The position numbers were made by a program, and so were the translations under genes. A stretch of DNA of 64,000 nucleotides from Confluentibacter lentus (GTDB taxonomy: Bacteria > Bacteroidota > Bacteroidia > Flavobacteriales > Flavobacteriaceae), in the NCBI RefSeq assembly GCF_002806995.1, contig NZ_NIHE01000006.1:124001-188000 (forward strand). Reading direction: 5' to 3'. Shown here piece by piece: positions 52,633 to 59,667 of this stretch; the first letter of the stretch is position 1, and every line of letters starts with the position of its first letter. The notes under the pieces are model-generated. The model did not search any database. It worked only from the letters and a program-made list of their open reading frames with translations, and was not told the origin of the DNA.

Positions 52633-52979
52633 TCGTCATTGCAGGAGGAACGACTGAAGCAATCTGTGAAATCCTAGTTACCCATAAAGAGATTGCTTCG
52701 TGCCTCGCAAAGACGGTAATTTAGCAACTATATTACCATAATTCCGTTTCAATTTAAAAGATTACTTCGCTTTTTTTAATTAAAAAGCTCGCAATGACGT
52801 TTTCATTATTATTTTTGTCACACTGAGCGCAGTCGATGTGCGTTTTGTCATTCCTGTGCAAGCAGGAATCCATTTAAACTAATATTTTTGTTTCCTCACC
52901 ATACAATAACATCAGTAATAGTATGATGCGGACTGACTTTATAACTAAAAAAGATACCTGCTTTCGCAGGTAGTTAAAT
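52633..52979. repeat. 347-bp mosaic of REP-like palindromic elements upstream of hisS
   Basis: No ORF of note. Recognisable units: GTCATTGCAGGAGGAACGAC with GATTGCTTCGTGCCTCGCAA (inverted ends, 52635-52714); a variant right end split by an AT palindrome (52770-52799, ending GCTCGCAATGACG); a TGTCACACTGAGCGCAGTCG unit (about 52816-52842); a GTCATTCCTG...CAGGAAT hairpin (52847-52871); and TACCTGC-TTTC-GCAGGTA (52955-52972), 7 nt before the hisS ATG. Units of this kind are common dispersed repeats in flavobacterial genomes by general experience. Confidence 0.65.
52955..52972. repeat. Palindrome TACCTGC-TTTC-GCAGGTA in the hisS leader
   Basis: A perfect 7-bp stem with a TTTC loop, ending 7 nt before the hisS ATG. 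It would lie over the ribosome-binding region in the mRNA. Confidence 0.7.
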
Positions 52980-54650
52980 ATGGCTCAAAAACCAAGCATC
53001 CCAAAAGGAACCCGAGATTTTAATCCGGAACAGGTCGCAAAACGCAACTATATTTTTAATACCATTCGTGGTGTTTTTGAAACGTTCGGATTTCAACCTA
53101 TTGAAACACCAAGTTTTGAAAACTCGGAGACTTTAATGGGTAAATATGGTGATGAGGGTGATAGATTGATTTTTAACATTTTAAATTCTGGGGAATTTTT
53201 AAGAAGTTTTAATGATAATTTAATAAAGACTATTAAAACCGCTATTCACAATTTAGGAATAGGAATGCGTGAGGATAAAAATTTTGACTTAATGAAATTT
53301 GAATCAAATTTCATTGCAAAATTTCCAAATATATTAAAATCATTGAAGGACGTAAAGTTTGATGAGAACATTATTAATCTTGAAAACTTGACAAATGACA
53401 TATGGTTTAGGATTAATCAAATAGTTTTAAAGCATGAAAATCTAAAGGCAAGATTGCTTAAGGAAGATAATGACAATTTAACGGTATTAACTAATATTGT
53501 ATTTGGTGATTTTTATTTTAATTTTGGAAATAAATATGTAGGTAATTATATCTCAGAAAAAGCCCTCCGCTACGACCTAACGGTCCCATTCGCCCGTTAC
53601 GTTGTACAACACCAAAACGAGATTGAGTTTCCATTCAAGCGTTACCAAATACAACCTGTTTGGCGTGCCGATAGACCACAAAAAGGACGTTTTAGGGAGT
53701 TTTACCAATGTGATGCCGATGTGGTGGGAAGTGATTCGTTATGGCAGGAGGTGGAGTTTATTCAATTATATGACACTGTTTTTTCAGCATTAAAACTAGA
53801 TGGTGTTACCATTAAAATCAATAACCGTAAAATTTTGTCTGGTATTGCCGAAGTTATTGGCGCTTCTGATAAATTAATCGATTTTACGGTGGCTTTAGAT
53901 AAACTCGATAAAATAGGCGAGGAGAAGGTAAAAGAAGAGATGTTTTCCAAAGGTATTTCTGAAGTTGGGATTTCTAAATTACAGCCCTTATTTACCTTAT
54001 CGGGTTCTTTTGAATCGCAAATAGAATCTTTAAAATCCATTTTATCATCTTCCGAAGAAGGCAAAAAAGGGATTGACGAATTAGCGTTTATAAATTCAGC
54101 TATTACCGAATTAGGATTAACAACAGCCACTTTGCAGTTGGATGTGACGTTGGCACGTGGATTAAATTATTATACAGGCGCTATTTTTGAAGTCGCAGCT
54201 CCAAAACACGTGCAAATGGGCTCCATTGGGGGCGGTGGACGCTATGATGACCTAACTGGTATTTTCGGATTAGCTAATGTCAGTGGTGTGGGAATTAGTT
54301 TCGGATTGGATCGTATTTACTTGGTATTGGAGGAATTGGGCTTGTTTCCCGAAACCGTCACCAAAAGCATTGATGTATTATTTATAAATTTTGGCGATAA
54401 AGAAGCCTTATTCAGTTTAAAAGCCATCAAGCAATTACGATTACAAGGCATTCATGCCGAATTATACCCTGATGCTGCCAAAATGAAAAAGCAAATGGCA
54501 CATGCCGATAAGCGTGCGATTCCGTTTGTGGTCTTGGTAGGCGAGGAGGAAGTGAATTCCAACACCTATACTTTAAAAAATATGGTTTCAGGAAAACAAT
54601 CTAAAGTATCACTTCAAGACTTGATTTTAGAAATAAAAAAAGAGTCCTAA
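52980..54650 (+). CDS. hisS: Histidine--tRNA ligase with an unusual ~100-residue insertion
   Basis: A 556-residue class II synthetase; the flavobacterial norm is about 455-460. Around the insertion all core motifs are normal: GTRDFNPEQ and [15 protein letters not shown] (motif 1 region), [13 protein letters not shown], motif 2 [20 protein letters not shown], then the histidine motif [25 protein letters not shown] and motif 3 [12 protein letters not shown], and the anticodon-binding domain. Between NILNSGEFL (residue ~73) and [10 protein letters not shown] (~191) there are ~115 residues where the family normally has a short variable loop. Start codon and end are as in the family. The gene is preceded by a mosaic of palindromic repeats and followed by a hairpin. 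Confidence 0.93.
53202..53550 (+). other. Low-GC insertion segment inside hisS
   Basis: Codes for about residues 75-190 of HisRS, a helical, Lys/Asn/Ile/Phe-rich stretch ([45 protein letters not shown]). My count gives 80 G+C in 330 nt (53221-53550), about 24%, against 56 in 120 (53581-53700), about 47%, downstream and about 36% upstream. The frame is fully open, so the segment is translated. I recognise no domain in it. Confidence 0.75.
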
Positions 54651-54667
54651 AAATTAATTTAGGACTC
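54642..54667 (-). terminator. Terminator hairpin for the minus-strand surface protein gene
   Basis: Stem GAGTCCTAAA (54642-54651) and TTTAGGACTC (54658-54667). On the minus strand it is followed by a run of seven T, so it ends the surface gene at 54730. The T run is antisense to the last codons of hisS (KKES). Confidence 0.7.
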
Positions 54668-54729
54668 CCCAATTAAGCGGTTATGTAAATAGCAGATTTG
54701 GGGTCTACTTGTCAACAAAAAATAACCAC

Positions 54730-57700
54730 TTATTGTATCAATACTTTTTTAGAAAACTTACCATATTCGGTAGTTAACTGTATAATATATGCCCCTGTTG
54801 CTATTTGACTGGCCTTATATTCTAAATAATTTTTGTTTGTTTCTGTATCGAACTTGAACATGGATTGTCCAAGAATATTAAACATCTCTACAGATTTAAT
54901 TAATTTTAAATCGGAATTATCCACTACGATGCTCTTCTTATCATTTGAAAAATAGACATTAATTTCATGGTCTTTAACAGTGTCTACAGTCAATGTCTGT
55001 GCTTTAGAAAAGGTGATTTCAAATCGGTTTAAATATTCACCTGTATTTAAAAATACATTATATTTTCCCTCTCTTAAATTGTGATATATACCTAATTCTT
55101 TATCATGTAAATAAATATTAATATTATCAGGCACATTTTCCAATTTATCAATGATGATATTATTATTACCATCTTTTTTCGTATGAATACCAAGTGGTAA
55201 TATGGTGCTGTCATCAATGGCATCAATACCTTGTATGCTATGTTTGTTAGTATCAATCATCCAATACATATCATCTGCTTGAGTGTCTATATAAAGCGCA
55301 TCAAATCCCCAATCTTTTCCTAGCGTAGCTCTAGTGTCTACGGTTGCTAAAATCTGTCTATGCAAAGAGCCCACAGAGTTAAAGCCTATTCGGAATTTCA
55401 TTCTAGTGTCTTCAGATTTCTTGTTAGCGGATATTTTACCATTTTTAGAATTACTCGATTTTATGAATAGGGAATTAGCACCATCTTCTTTTTCAAATGC
55501 ACGCTGACCATTATTAAATTTTATGGTTCCCGTAGTTTCGGCTGTGACAAAAAATCCTTGACCTACCGGAATATAACGTCCTGGGATTTTTGTAGGTGTA
55601 CCTGCCGATGATACATCTGGGTCACTCGTGCCAATTGCTGCTGCTGGTACACCACCAGAAAGAGAATATGTGGCATATCCACCTTGATATTCTCTCAAAA
55701 TGTGTGAGCCACCGCCCCAATGTTCCCAAAAATAAAGTGTGCCAGTTGTGGAGCCAGCTCCTGCAATGGTAGGGCCATTATCTAATATGAATTGTTCCGC
55801 ATCGATAGCGGAAGCGTATGGATTTCCAACTAAATAGTCATTACCACTGTTAATGTTTAAGGTAATATCACCATTATTTGGTTTTCCTCGTAATATATAA
55901 TTTTGCTCAGTTGTTATAGAGCCTGTTCCAGGACCTTTCATAGTGAATCCTTCGCCAGAAAGAAGTGTTCCCGTACTGCGAACATGTTGCCATTTTGAAT
56001 AGTTTCCAGATAATTGATTGCTGAATTTCCATATCCAATAATCGGCAATTCTTAATGGTGACGCCGTACCGTTATAGCCAGAGGTATTAAAGCCAACATT
56101 GGTAAAGATATCGGTTACTTTGTAATTGTTATTGTTTGTGGAATTATTAGTCTTTCCAACGGGAGATGACCAGTAATTATAAGTAAATGTATCTGCCGTA
56201 CCTTGTTGGTCTTTTTCTAAAGCACCGGAACTTGTGGGATCCAATGTACTGTCCATGCCTTGAACTAATTGGGAATCGCCTTCCAAATCAATTAAGCCAT
56301 CCAGTTTGAGGTACCAACTTACATTTAGTTCAGAATCATTCAATACGCTAAAAGTTATTGGATTTGATCCAGCATCTAGTTGGTCTACAAATAATCCTAA
56401 GTGTTTTTGATTGGCATTGAAGGTTACATTATTATGGGTTACTTTAACAATAGACCAATCGTAAGTAACAGCATCATCACCGCAAACACCATTTGAAGGT
56501 ACAGCAACGGCTACTGGTAAACTTCCACTTTGTTGTGTGATGAATGGAAGCGGAGCAGTTTGCACATCAATAATTTTTGTATTGTATATTCTAGCACCAG
56601 AGGACACATCTACGCTTGCCGTTGTTAAATCGTCTATAATGTTGTCTTTATAAGTATCCATGCGGAAGTATCTCACTAATGATGACCAATTTAAAGGAGT
56701 TGAGACATTGGTAGTATAGTTGTAATCGTTGATGTCTTTTGGAATGATACGGCCTCTTACAATACCTGAGTTATCTTCTATTTCCTGATATATCATTTTA
56801 TGTAACTCATCACTTGATAATGCTTTGCTGAAGACTCTAACCTCATCCATAAATCCTTTAAAAAACTTGCTGTTCGTGTCTGGTTGCCTTCCCAATGAAA
56901 AGCTTGATGCATCCGCATTTAAAGGGCCCGAACTGGTTGTAGTCATGGCAACTTCTCGCCCGTTTATATACAATTTAAAAAAACCACCCAAACAATCGCA
57001 ACTAAATGTTGCGGCTAGATGAATCCATTGGTTTGTGGTTAAAGGCGTATTGTGGGAGATGGTATATCCATCTGCATAAGCTGTTACGCTTTTATTTGAA
57101 TTAAGTTGTATATAAAATTGATTCTGCCCAATAATAACCTGATTACCGGTAGCCGTTGGGTCTATTTTTATCCAACCCATTATAGTCGCCTCATTCCAAC
57201 CATTTATAATTGGAGGTTCTTCAGCATAATCATTTCTTCCATCAAAATAAAGATGTAATTTTCTGTCTAAATCTCTTGGAGATCCAAAAGCGTTGTCGTC
57301 TGTATCAAACAAATCGACAATACCATCTCTATCCGTGTCAGCTGTATCATCAATAGTACCATCATTATTTGCGTCTAAATTGCCGTAAAGTGTATGTGAG
57401 ATATCAAATGTAGATCCATTAGATGTTACATCCATATAATCGGGTATGCCATCGTTATCAGTGTCTTTAACATAATGGTGCCAGCCTGGCCCCGTAGATC
57501 CTTGGTTTTTATTCCCATAAGCCGTAGAAAATGTGCCTCCGTTATAATAATCATAAATATCTAGAATACCATCTGTAAAATATTCTAAAATGCCATCGGA
57601 GTTAATGTCTGTTTGTCTAACAGCATCAGTGTCAATTCCATCACCAACACCATCGCCATTAATATCACCATCACCATTTTGATAGGTTGCATTGGCTGTA

Positions 57701-59667
57701 TTTCCAGCTCCAGATTCATCAACATCAAAAATAGTATCATTATCGCTATCTAAATCCAAATAATTTGGGGTTCCATCCAAGTCTGTATCTAATACAATAT
57801 GTCCTTCACTTAAATCGTGCATACCATTGCCATTGGCATCACTCCAAGACGTAACACCTGTTAATGTTGCTGTTCCTTCACTGTAATTACCTAAACCTGC
57901 TTCAACCACATCTGGAATTCCATCATTGTCCGAGTCTAAATCAAAAACATCGGCAACACCATCGTTATCGGTATCGCAAAGGGTCTGAGAAATAACAATA
58001 TCATCAATAGCCAAATCATTTCCTAAGCCACCAATTTCATTATTAATAAAATATACATAAAATTCACTAACATTAAAGGTTAGGTTGGCTGAAAAATTAT
58101 GCCAACTTCCAGCTGGGTCTCCATTGATTGAAGGTGGAATATCTCCAGTTAAAATGGTTGCTAACAGATTATTATTAACATCCCTAAATTCTACTTTAAT
58201 ATTTGGTCGAAGTCTGGTTGCTATGTTTGGCGCTGCTTGTGTATCTAAATTTAAAACCCAGAAACTGTAAGTAACGGGTATGTTAGGTAATGCTCCCACT
58301 ATGCTTGCTGTATAAAATATGCCAGGCTCGTAAGAGGCATTAAACATGGCCATTCTACCGTTATTATCGCCAGAAGTGTGATCCTCACCAGTATACCACA
58401 ATCCATCTGCCCAACTGGCAACTTCGTTGTTTGGTGTTTGGTTAATGCCATCTCCATTAGCTGCTTTATGGTATACTACATATTCACCATCATTTAAGTC
58501 GATACCTCCAAGAGATGGACAACTTGCGGTTCCATCTTCGTAACAATAGGTGGTTTCAGCATCGTAGGTAGTGTTGATGGTTGTTCTCGTATTTCCTTCT
58601 CCAAAAGTCTCATTTAAAAATTTGTAGTTTATTGATTTTGATATGGATGAAGTTTGACAAGCCAGCTCTTCTTCGAAATCTAATATGCCATCATTATCAT
58701 CATCCACATCAAGATTATCAAAAACGTTATCACCATCGCTATCAAAAAAATTTTGTTCAGAACGCGCTTGTATATTGAATTGATATGCTGACTCATTAGA
58801 ATCATTATTATTAATGGTTATTGTAGATGTTTTTGTTCCTAAGGTGAGGGAAAGAAATTTTATCGTGAATGTGGTACTTCCACCAATAGCAATTGGAGAC
58901 GATGGCGAACTTGTAATGATAAAATCGGTGGTATTTGACAGTACCACACTCGAAATTATTAAATCAGCTGTACCTAAGTTTTGTATTGTAAATGTTCTAG
59001 AAATTTCGATACCCTCATTGGCAGTCGTAAAATTAGTAAAATCGATGTTAGATGGGGTAATGTCTCCATTAGGTATTGCAAAGGTGTTCCCAGTGACGTT
59101 TATTTCGGGAGACGGTGGGTAACCTGTAATGGTTACATTGTCTATATATACATCATCAGTAGTCTGATTACCACTAGACCTGAATCTAAATCTGGAGTTT
59201 GCAGTAAATGTATAAACGGTAGTACTAGCTATGGCTATTTGATTAAGATAATTTGTATTGAGGTTGAAGTTTGTCCCTCTTACATATTGCGCTATTGGTG
59301 TAGCATGCCAAGTTGTACCACCATTACTGGAATATTCTATAAAAAAACCTTCTCCATTGGAATAACCTGCTGCTCTAAAGTCGAATTTAATCTCAACAGA
59401 ACCATAACTAGTAAGGTCAATATTGTTTGTAAAGGTTATTGAAGTTGCCGTATTTGATTGAAGATTAACCGAATTAGCTCCCCCACCGGTTATTCTAGAG
59501 CTCGTGTCAAGAATACAATTAGTGCCACCATCATTCCAAATAGTAAATGGAAATGTGCCTCCTTCAAAAGTTTCGGTATTTATTACCGTTTGAGAATGTG
59601 AAATGAGAGATAATAATATACTAGCCAATAGTATACTAAACCTATGCGGGATAGTAAAGTTTTTCAT
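54730..59667 (-). CDS. Secreted multidomain protein: choice-of-anchor D-like, TSP3 repeats, LamG, type A T9SS sorting domain
   Basis: A 1645-residue surface protein. In order: signal peptide (MKNFTIPHRFSILLASILLSLISHSQ); a jelly-roll-like domain (about 30-185, ending DDVYIDNVTITG); an Ig-like choice-of-anchor D segment (about 188-300, TFTIQNLGTADLII); calcium-binding thrombospondin type 3 repeats (about 308-335 and 565-800: DSDNDGIPD, DTDNDGIPDYMD); a second jelly-roll-like domain between them; a LamG/concanavalin-like domain (about 800-960: LYFDGRNDY, GFMDEVRVFSKAL); a beta-rich region with SxGxLxxGEGFTMKGPG; and a type A sorting domain (about 1560-1645, SVEMFNILGQSMF...GAYIIQLTTEYGKFSKKVLIQ). 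It is exported by the type IX system. The function is likely adhesion or glycan binding, by inference. It is a paralogue of the neighbour at 59842. Confidence 0.9.
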   Translation of the reverse strand: MKNFTIPHRFSILLASILLSLISHSQTVINTETFEGGTFPFTIWNDGGTNCILDTSSRITGGGANSVNLQSNTATSITFTNNIDLTSYGSVEIKFDFRAAGYSNGEGFFIEYSSNGGTTWHATPIAQYVRGTNFNLNTNYLNQIAIASTTVYTFTANSRFRFRSSGNQTTDDVYIDNVTITGYPPSPEINVTGNTFAIPNGDITPSNIDFTNFTTANEGIEISRTFTIQNLGTADLIISSVVLSNTTDFIITSSPSSPIAIGGSTTFTIKFLSLTLGTKTSTITINNNDSNESAYQFNIQARSEQNFFDSDGDNVFDNLDVDDDNDGILDFEEELACQTSSISKSINYKFLNETFGEGNTRTTINTTYDAETTYCYEDGTASCPSLGGIDLNDGEYVVYHKAANGDGINQTPNNEVASWADGLWYTGEDHTSGDNNGRMAMFNASYEPGIFYTASIVGALPNIPVTYSFWVLNLDTQAAPNIATRLRPNIKVEFRDVNNNLLATILTGDIPPSINGDPAGSWHNFSANLTFNVSEFYVYFINNEIGGLGNDLAIDDIVISQTLCDTDNDGVADVFDLDSDNDGIPDVVEAGLGNYSEGTATLTGVTSWSDANGNGMHDLSEGHIVLDTDLDGTPNYLDLDSDNDTIFDVDESGAGNTANATYQNGDGDINGDGVGDGIDTDAVRQTDINSDGILEYFTDGILDIYDYYNGGTFSTAYGNKNQGSTGPGWHHYVKDTDNDGIPDYMDVTSNGSTFDISHTLYGNLDANNDGTIDDTADTDRDGIVDLFDTDDNAFGSPRDLDRKLHLYFDGRNDYAEEPPIINGWNEATIMGWIKIDPTATGNQVIIGQNQFYIQLNSNKSVTAYADGYTISHNTPLTTNQWIHLAATFSCDCLGGFFKLYINGREVAMTTTSSGPLNADASSFSLGRQPDTNSKFFKGFMDEVRVFSKALSSDELHKMIYQEIEDNSGIVRGRIIPKDINDYNYTTNVSTPLNWSSLVRYFRMDTYKDNIIDDLTTASVDVSSGARIYNTKIIDVQTAPLPFITQQSGSLPVAVAVPSNGVCGDDAVTYDWSIVKVTHNNVTFNANQKHLGLFVDQLDAGSNPITFSVLNDSELNVSWYLKLDGLIDLEGDSQLVQGMDSTLDPTSSGALEKDQQGTADTFTYNYWSSPVGKTNNSTNNNNYKVTDIFTNVGFNTSGYNGTASPLRIADYWIWKFSNQLSGNYSKWQHVRSTGTLLSGEGFTMKGPGTGSITTEQNYILRGKPNNGDITLNINSGNDYLVGNPYASAIDAEQFILDNGPTIAGAGSTTGTLYFWEHWGGGSHILREYQGGYATYSLSGGVPAAAIGTSDPDVSSAGTPTKIPGRYIPVGQGFFVTAETTGTIKFNNGQRAFEKEDGANSLFIKSSNSKNGKISANKKSEDTRMKFRIGFNSVGSLHRQILATVDTRATLGKDWGFDALYIDTQADDMYWMIDTNKHSIQGIDAIDDSTILPLGIHTKKDGNNNIIIDKLENVPDNINIYLHDKELGIYHNLREGKYNVFLNTGEYLNRFEITFSKAQTLTVDTVKDHEINVYFSNDKKSIVVDNSDLKLIKSVEMFNILGQSMFKFDTETNKNYLEYKASQIATGAYIIQLTTEYGKFSKKVLIQ

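Follow-up and report, generated by a model that had tools for sequence, protein, structure and literature searches.

A linker in histidyl-tRNA synthetase varies by cassette across Bacteroidia

Aminoacyl-tRNA synthetases carry idiosyncratic insertion domains, such as the editing domain of bacterial ProRS or the CP1 domain of LeuRS, each of which forms a single family, is inherited with its enzyme and has a defined function. Swapping of domains is familiar from type I restriction HsdS, where target-recognition domains are exchanged, and from comparable polymorphic cassette loci, while Rickettsia palindromic elements are short repeats that inserted in-frame in many coding genes.

The gene for histidyl-tRNA synthetase (HisRS), hisS, bears some likeness to each of these systems. 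As with the ProRS and LeuRS domains, the insert described here is an extra domain in a catalytic-core loop of a synthetase; unlike them, many unrelated segments alternate at this site between close species, and some have been exchanged. As in HsdS, unrelated or diverged domains appear to be recombined through conserved flanks and are patchily distributed among close relatives. HsdS-type loci, however, are non-essential specificity or surface genes, whereas hisS is an essential housekeeping gene and any specificity of its inserts is putative at most. Rickettsia palindromic elements, too, are acquired in-frame segments in housekeeping genes, but the hisS inserts had no confident match outside hisS. 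Compared with an ordinary Bacteroidia HisRS, e.g. that of the solved Elizabethkingia structure 6nhi, gene and backbone are the same and both flanks align; the linker is short there, in contrast to the predicted domain of 100–170 residues here. Insertion domains of synthetases are known as such, but a literature search conducted mostly outside subscription journals listed no paper that appeared to deal with variable HisRS insertions or with an essential synthetase with swapped unrelated inserts, let alone one swapping such domains across genera.

The hisS gene and its insert in Confluentibacter lentus

The window, i.e. the whole stretch of 64,000 nt analyzed here, derives from contig NZ_NIHE01000006.1 of C. 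lentus and carries hisS at 52980..54650 on the plus strand, an ORF encoding a HisRS of 556 aa. Searching the whole 3.35-Mb genome returned it as the only HisRS match (n = 1). With 395.2 bits it exceeded the cut-off of NCBIfam TIGR00442 hisS (286.75) and belongs to that family; in Pfam, PF13393 (tRNA-synt_His) and PF03129 were matched. The alignment to 6nhi is interrupted at query residues 80/185 and resumes past the gap, and alignments to 6nhi and 3net span both sides of the insert, which is flanked by the catalytic and anticodon-binding regions. As the genome contains this sole HisRS match and a gene for tRNA-His, the enzyme is expected to charge tRNA-His. It is intact apart from the insert and probably active, and catalysis itself should be little changed. 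A paper on the histidine genes of Bacteroidota (PMC8305728) puts the average length of HisRS at 445 ± 38 residues. Convergent with hisS, the minus strand at 54730–59667 encodes a large protein with Laminin_G_3 and DUF1573-like matches and a sub-threshold match to a secretion sorting domain.

In the window, the linker from ILNSG to LRYDLT measures 124 residues, or 119 without its ISEKA tail, which is common to nearly all relatives; in most of these the corresponding lengths are 27 and 22. These values bear out the initial annotation, made from the letters and reading frames of the window, which had proposed a low-GC insertion in the HisRS catalytic domain at a place where relatives normally have a short linker. 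It had located the segment at 53202–53550. The right side of this span held, but the variable part begins further left, at ~53193, delimiting a plus-strand cassette at 53193..53549 with a GC content of 0.24. Comparison with congeners, homologues in other genera and AlphaFold2 define the encoded 119-residue insert as a member of one insert family (family A) with a predicted five-helix domain.

Upstream, the backbone up to ILNSG (52980..53192, plus strand) follows the genus and is 88–91% identical to that of two congeners (G002 and G004) at the nucleotide level over 213 nt. Downstream, the backbone (53550..53760, plus strand) starts with a motif of 11 residues and is highly conserved, with 90–100% amino acid identity in most of 150 listed matches (87% being the lowest among those listed). 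Judged by these identities and by a profile of 30-nt blocks, the two stretches might have acted as left and right recombination arms, respectively. Blocks in the flanks were mostly closer to congeners than to the Winogradskyella locus with the most similar insert (L032), and identity dipped in the 60–90 nt preceding the insert, so breakpoints may extend slightly into the flank. The right edge is sharper than the left, since GC steps from 0.24 in the insert to 0.46 downstream, compared with 0.37 upstream; the sharp right boundary noticed initially is hence confirmed. Inside the insert, an inverted repeat at 53291–53315 has perfectly matching 12-nt arms separated by a single nucleotide. Homologous inserts occupy the same site in other genomes, and long inserts are also present in single-contig assemblies (e.g. 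G183, G612, G616 and G618), which argues against chance or mis-assembly and disposes of an assembly join as the source of the segment.

AlphaFold2, supplied with six sequences, predicted the window insert to fold into a helical domain (pLDDT 89.3, pTM 0.85) of five helices, at residues 5–33, 39–56, 69–85, 88–96 and 103–131 of the modeled stretch, of which the long outer ones may form a stalk leaving the loop. A second family (family B; five sequences) was likewise predicted to be all-helical (pLDDT 84.0, pTM 0.75). The initial suggestion of an acquired extra domain gains support from the predicted fold and from the dissimilarity to congeners, yet requires the amendment that the domain is one of many unrelated alleles at the site.

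When searched alone, the segment recovered HisRS homologues but no convincing known fold or family. The family-A profile found nothing below E 0.038 among PDB sequences, and Foldseek with model A returned no hit of E <1 in PDB or viral structures. The best Z scores in VIA-align were 4.7 (A) and 5.2 (B, compared by this program only), values that have little meaning for helical bundles. In scans of Pfam, PADLOC, PHROGs and NCBIfam with 37 inserts, ten of which were rescanned singly per library, matches were scattered and each listed family hit two inserts at most. The best PADLOC and NCBIfam matches, REase_II (3.8e-5) and SMEK_N (6.7e-4), concerned one member each, both outside those ten, and are probable composition effects.

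Linker forms across Bacteroidia

The HisRS linker site varies by cassette across Bacteroidia, and the window insert is one allele among many unrelated ones; it was this class-wide recombining site, with its many alternatives, that the initial annotation had missed. Three linker states already occur among the four Confluentibacter genomes in which HisRS was matched: besides the window insert, there are 27-residue linkers in G002 and C. sediminis (G003), and a 148-residue linker from a different cluster in C. flavum (G004). The fifth congener (G001, 70% complete) had no HisRS match. As congeners possess either 27 residues or an unrelated insert, close relatives do not share the same conserved insertion, which excludes an ordinary loop specific to the lineage. 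In G002, G003 and G499 (L004, L005 and L195), the short linkers contain QLTTNNYQLLT- or LATRNSQLATS-like stretches, which resemble in-frame remnants of small repeats.

The window insert was recovered from seven of 397 genomes of the family Flavobacteriaceae at E 1e-10 or better (its own included), with identities ranging from 71% down to 28%; one further relative was 24% identical (E 0.05). All seven matches were located in HisRS and free of internal stops, and no match outside hisS reached this threshold in the same genomes, non-hisS matches starting at E 4.6e-4. At the loci read, the weak non-hisS matches that recur look like a single AsmA-like family, and some matches are kinase-like; all of these were judged to be chance. 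A search of 395 class-level genomes, few of them Flavobacteriaceae, gave a single confident match, in hisS of C. lentus itself. Among 68 Winogradskyella genomes, family B had three confident matches, each of them in hisS, and a fourth match (E 0.004) contained three stops. By strict BLAST clustering, family A has 13 members, including inserts of Yeosuana, Cellulophaga, Flavobacterium and Winogradskyella.

Frequencies were derived only from surveys of the family, the class and Winogradskyella, with one genome per species in the comparison. The 80 named loci were not used for this purpose, because they are the best 80 of 590 and lean toward full-length matches. HisRS was matched in 174 of 179 family genomes, which nearly all represent different genera; among the 150 matches listed, 11 frames spanned at least 540 aa, ten with verified inserts and one (G132) without. 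At the class level, 160 of 169 genomes had a match, and seven frames among the matches listed reached this length, five with inserts (that of C. lentus included) and two (G478 and G577) without. Inserts therefore also occur in Bacteroidia outside Flavobacteriaceae. The long open frames of G132, G478, G577 and G595 were false alarms whose linkers proved short on inspection. Outside Bacteroidia, frames among the matches listed in a phylum survey mostly measured 417–507 aa, with one frame of 669 aa in G892 and one of 524 aa in G946.

In Winogradskyella, HisRS matches were found in 64 of 68 genomes, that of G637 within a frame of 349 aa, and 15 of the 64 had verified long linkers (at least 110 residues), whose inserts fell into ten strict clusters. 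One of these carriers, G634 (75% complete, 4% contamination), has two hisS matches, one with a long and the other with a short linker (L208). Likewise, the Winogradskyella metagenome-assembled genome BWSM_122 (L086, L152) has two hisS genes with linkers of 116 and 27 residues, and its long insert is the same as that of G634. Both cases may reflect either a mixture of strains or the presence of two alleles within a single population.

Linker lengths in 178 distinct parsed hisS genes, a set enriched for long forms, were 27 aa in 125 cases, 28–35 aa in three, 36–59 aa in six, 60–99 aa in none and 100–169 aa in 44; the set leaves out seven class-level loci (L187–L190 with long inserts, and L197, L202 and L203 with linkers of ~60–65 residues), and the unparsed hisS stretches L193, L246 and L253 stand outside these counts. 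Together with L187–L190, the 44 make up 48 distinct long inserts, which formed 22 clusters at a BLAST E of 1e-4 (13, 9, 3, 2, 2, 2 and 2 members, plus 15 singletons). Looser iterative profile merging gave 16 clusters and was set aside for the strict ones, because single-sequence helical profiles may merge falsely. Comparing the family-A profile with those of families B and C detected no similarity. Several insert families are shared between genera, linking for instance Lacinutrix (L082) to Winogradskyella (L210), or L008 to L238. In all 44 inserts measured, GC was below that of the respective flanks (mean 0.246 vs. 0.366); the insert of L188, outside the measured set, has a GC content of 0.39. 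A separate class of recognizably similar linkers of 45–46 residues (NF...K..I.LP.S...; L095, L133, L141 and L156) spans Flavobacteriaceae genera, including Winogradskyella, Bizionia and Flavobacterium.

Histories of insert and backbone

The history of the segment differs from that of its flanks, and in several cases the insert has moved between genera on a backbone that stayed with its genus. For instance, L036 and L037, which belong to one genus, have backbones that are 87% identical and inserts that are 26% identical, whereas the window and L032, from different genera, have 80% identical backbones and 71% identical inserts. In Flavobacterium celericrescens and F. lacisediminis (L091 and L092), flanking DNA is 92–94% identical and the inserts fall into different clusters. 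Backbones of Winogradskyella HisRS form one clade (support 100/99). For clades chosen after the insert identities were known, AU tests on the backbone rejected the groupings that the inserts suggest, i.e. the window with L032 (p = 2e-81) and L035 with L084 and L234 (p = 2e-65), and the insert in turn rejected the Winogradskyella pair of L032 and L234 (p = 8e-17). The insert tree did not reject two other same-genus pairs, L036 with L037 (p = 0.25) and L090 with L096 (p = 0.28), and part of the descent may therefore be vertical with fast divergence.

Mosaicism within the gene was apparent in the pair L035/L084 (Cellulophaga tyrosinoxydans), in which pS in the insert core (codons 95–179) was 0.18, compared with 0.69 before and 0.64 after it (Fisher p = 3e-9); in the core, pN was 0.075 and pS 0.176. 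As the two are sisters in the backbone tree as well (69/81), they illustrate a mosaic rather than a conflict in topology. AT-rich codons alone do not account for the low pS, since the inserts of the window and L032 have a synonymous difference of 77%. Many pS contrasts obtained at an insert identity of ~25% were left out as unreliable. A synthetase gene chosen as a phylogenetic marker can hence be mosaic.

Mapped onto a tree of 48 Winogradskyella backbones, 17 of them non-short, the short, middle and long states changed at least 15 times, and at least 28 state changes were counted in a tree of 139 backbones from a set enriched for long forms; both trees are quick ones with many weak branches.

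Inserts share one open frame with HisRS and, in the pairs tested, evolve faster than their flanks under purifying selection. The dN/dS ratio was ~0.2 in the three family-A pairs for which it could be computed and 0.3–0.8 in other families, as opposed to 0.05–0.15 in flanks where dS was unsaturated. With ω below 1, no positive selection was shown, and the purifying selection could amount to no more than staying folded.

Possible causes of the variation

We give an even chance to the overall reading of the window insert as a hypervariable accessory-domain allele at a recombining site under balancing selection, most likely involved in shielding from an antagonist. In a minority of species, the usual linker of 27 residues is replaced by one of many unrelated, mostly AT-rich segments of ~100–170 residues, which would be exchanged by ordinary homologous recombination via the conserved flanks. 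That so many unrelated forms coexist with the short one would then reflect balancing (frequency-dependent) selection. As the most likely agent, we envisage an intracellular antagonist, i.e. a phage protein or toxin, that binds HisRS near the loop and is blocked, displaced or escaped from by the different domains. Polymorphism and exchange are observed; for selection by an intracellular HisRS antagonist, the arguments are about evenly poised. Our searches found neither an antagonist nor a partner gene or phage copy, so this driver is deduced solely from the pattern: an insert that is absent or replaced in closely related marine bacteria, and that moves alone between genera, is unusual for a housekeeping enzyme and suggests that HisRS is attacked or read by some component of the cell.

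Beyond this, HisRS might constitute an immunity locus, whose recombining recognition or shielding domains are kept diverse by frequency-dependent selection exerted by HisRS-targeting phages or toxins, or which serves as a trip-wire that stops histidine charging when an invader binds; we regard this as a tentative possibility that more probably fails than holds. If an antagonist does drive the variation, HisRS of this major group of bacteria would be an unrecognized phage or toxin target, with the insert alleles as ready-made reagents for finding that antagonist. HisRS-like genes were present in 16 phage and nine plasmid records (presence only). Searches of phages, plasmids and viral contigs recovered no insert copy beyond chance-level phage matches; among the latter, a tblastn match to a 'lysis regulatory protein' of a crAss-like phage (E 0.009, 63% of the query) was judged to be chance.

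The main alternative, rather unlikely yet backed by several observations, is neutral tolerance, in which a permissive surface loop receives foldable segments by recombination that drift thereafter, constrained only to fold and to spare the core. The rapid divergence of inserts, selection that is purifying and not positive, the occurrence of linkers of 40–65 residues and the finding that genomes with and without inserts can have one and the same tRNA-His all agree with such drift. However, insert families recur across genera, lengths are grouped, and at least 15 switches within one genus are many for segments of such size in an essential gene. Nor did confident insert copies turn up elsewhere, and AspRS and two neighboring genes hardly vary in length. 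Specifically, AspRS measured 585–589 aa in 60 of 66 full-strength matches from the same 68 Winogradskyella genomes (the other six being one of 367 and five of 593–614 aa; two genomes lacked a strong match), and the hisS neighbors were near-constant wherever their pattern was found, with 155–160 residues for DUF6495 (57 loci) and 147–154 for rplI (67 loci).

A regulatory or partner-binding module, which would dock HisRS to a protein or RNA or sense a metabolite in a niche-specific manner, is improbable. Two families predicted as folded domains and the purifying selection on inserts would suit such a role, but a shared partner would favor one family, as opposed to the 22 clusters and the differences between congeners. 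Moreover, in 13 neighborhoods read by eye, no gene near hisS was seen to be peculiar to insert carriers. A permease-like gene (412–413 residues) does lie near hisS in some relatives (L065, L067, L069 and L070), but its motif accompanied five long, one middle and six short linkers in the 12 of the 80 named loci (best 80 of 590) in which it was found.

That the insert contacts tRNA, compensating for changes in tRNA-His or altering its charging, had been among the initial suggestions and would suit its position, as HisRS binds tRNA and the insert lies in the catalytic domain. As a cause of the variation, this is very doubtful, since identical tRNA-His accompanies different inserts. The four Confluentibacter genomes with their three linker states have the same tRNA-His, and one tRNA-His is common to 11 of 26 Winogradskyella genomes tested, six with short linkers (in G587 judged by frame length only) and five with long inserts of three clusters.

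Finally, an initially proposed selfish in-frame element, or the remnant of an intein or intron, is highly improbable despite the AT-rich, patchy and horizontally moving nature of the insert, considering that confident copies outside hisS were absent from the genomes searched, as from a dispersed mobile repeat they should not be, that direct repeats of at least 10 nt did not flank it, that no endonuclease and no Pfam family up to E 1 was found in the insert stretch, that Rfam had no match at gathering score within 52900–54700, and that the seven confident family-A matches kept their frame.

Apart from its use as a length control, AspRS has an architecture of its own in the window's genome: an enzyme with tRNA-synt_2, GAD and OB-fold regions (L290:3261-5441, minus strand, contig C32 of G000) is preceded by a GatB/YqeY-like N-terminal domain, joined via a T/Q-rich linker, and its C-terminal part is 35–40% identical to the best Winogradskyella match.
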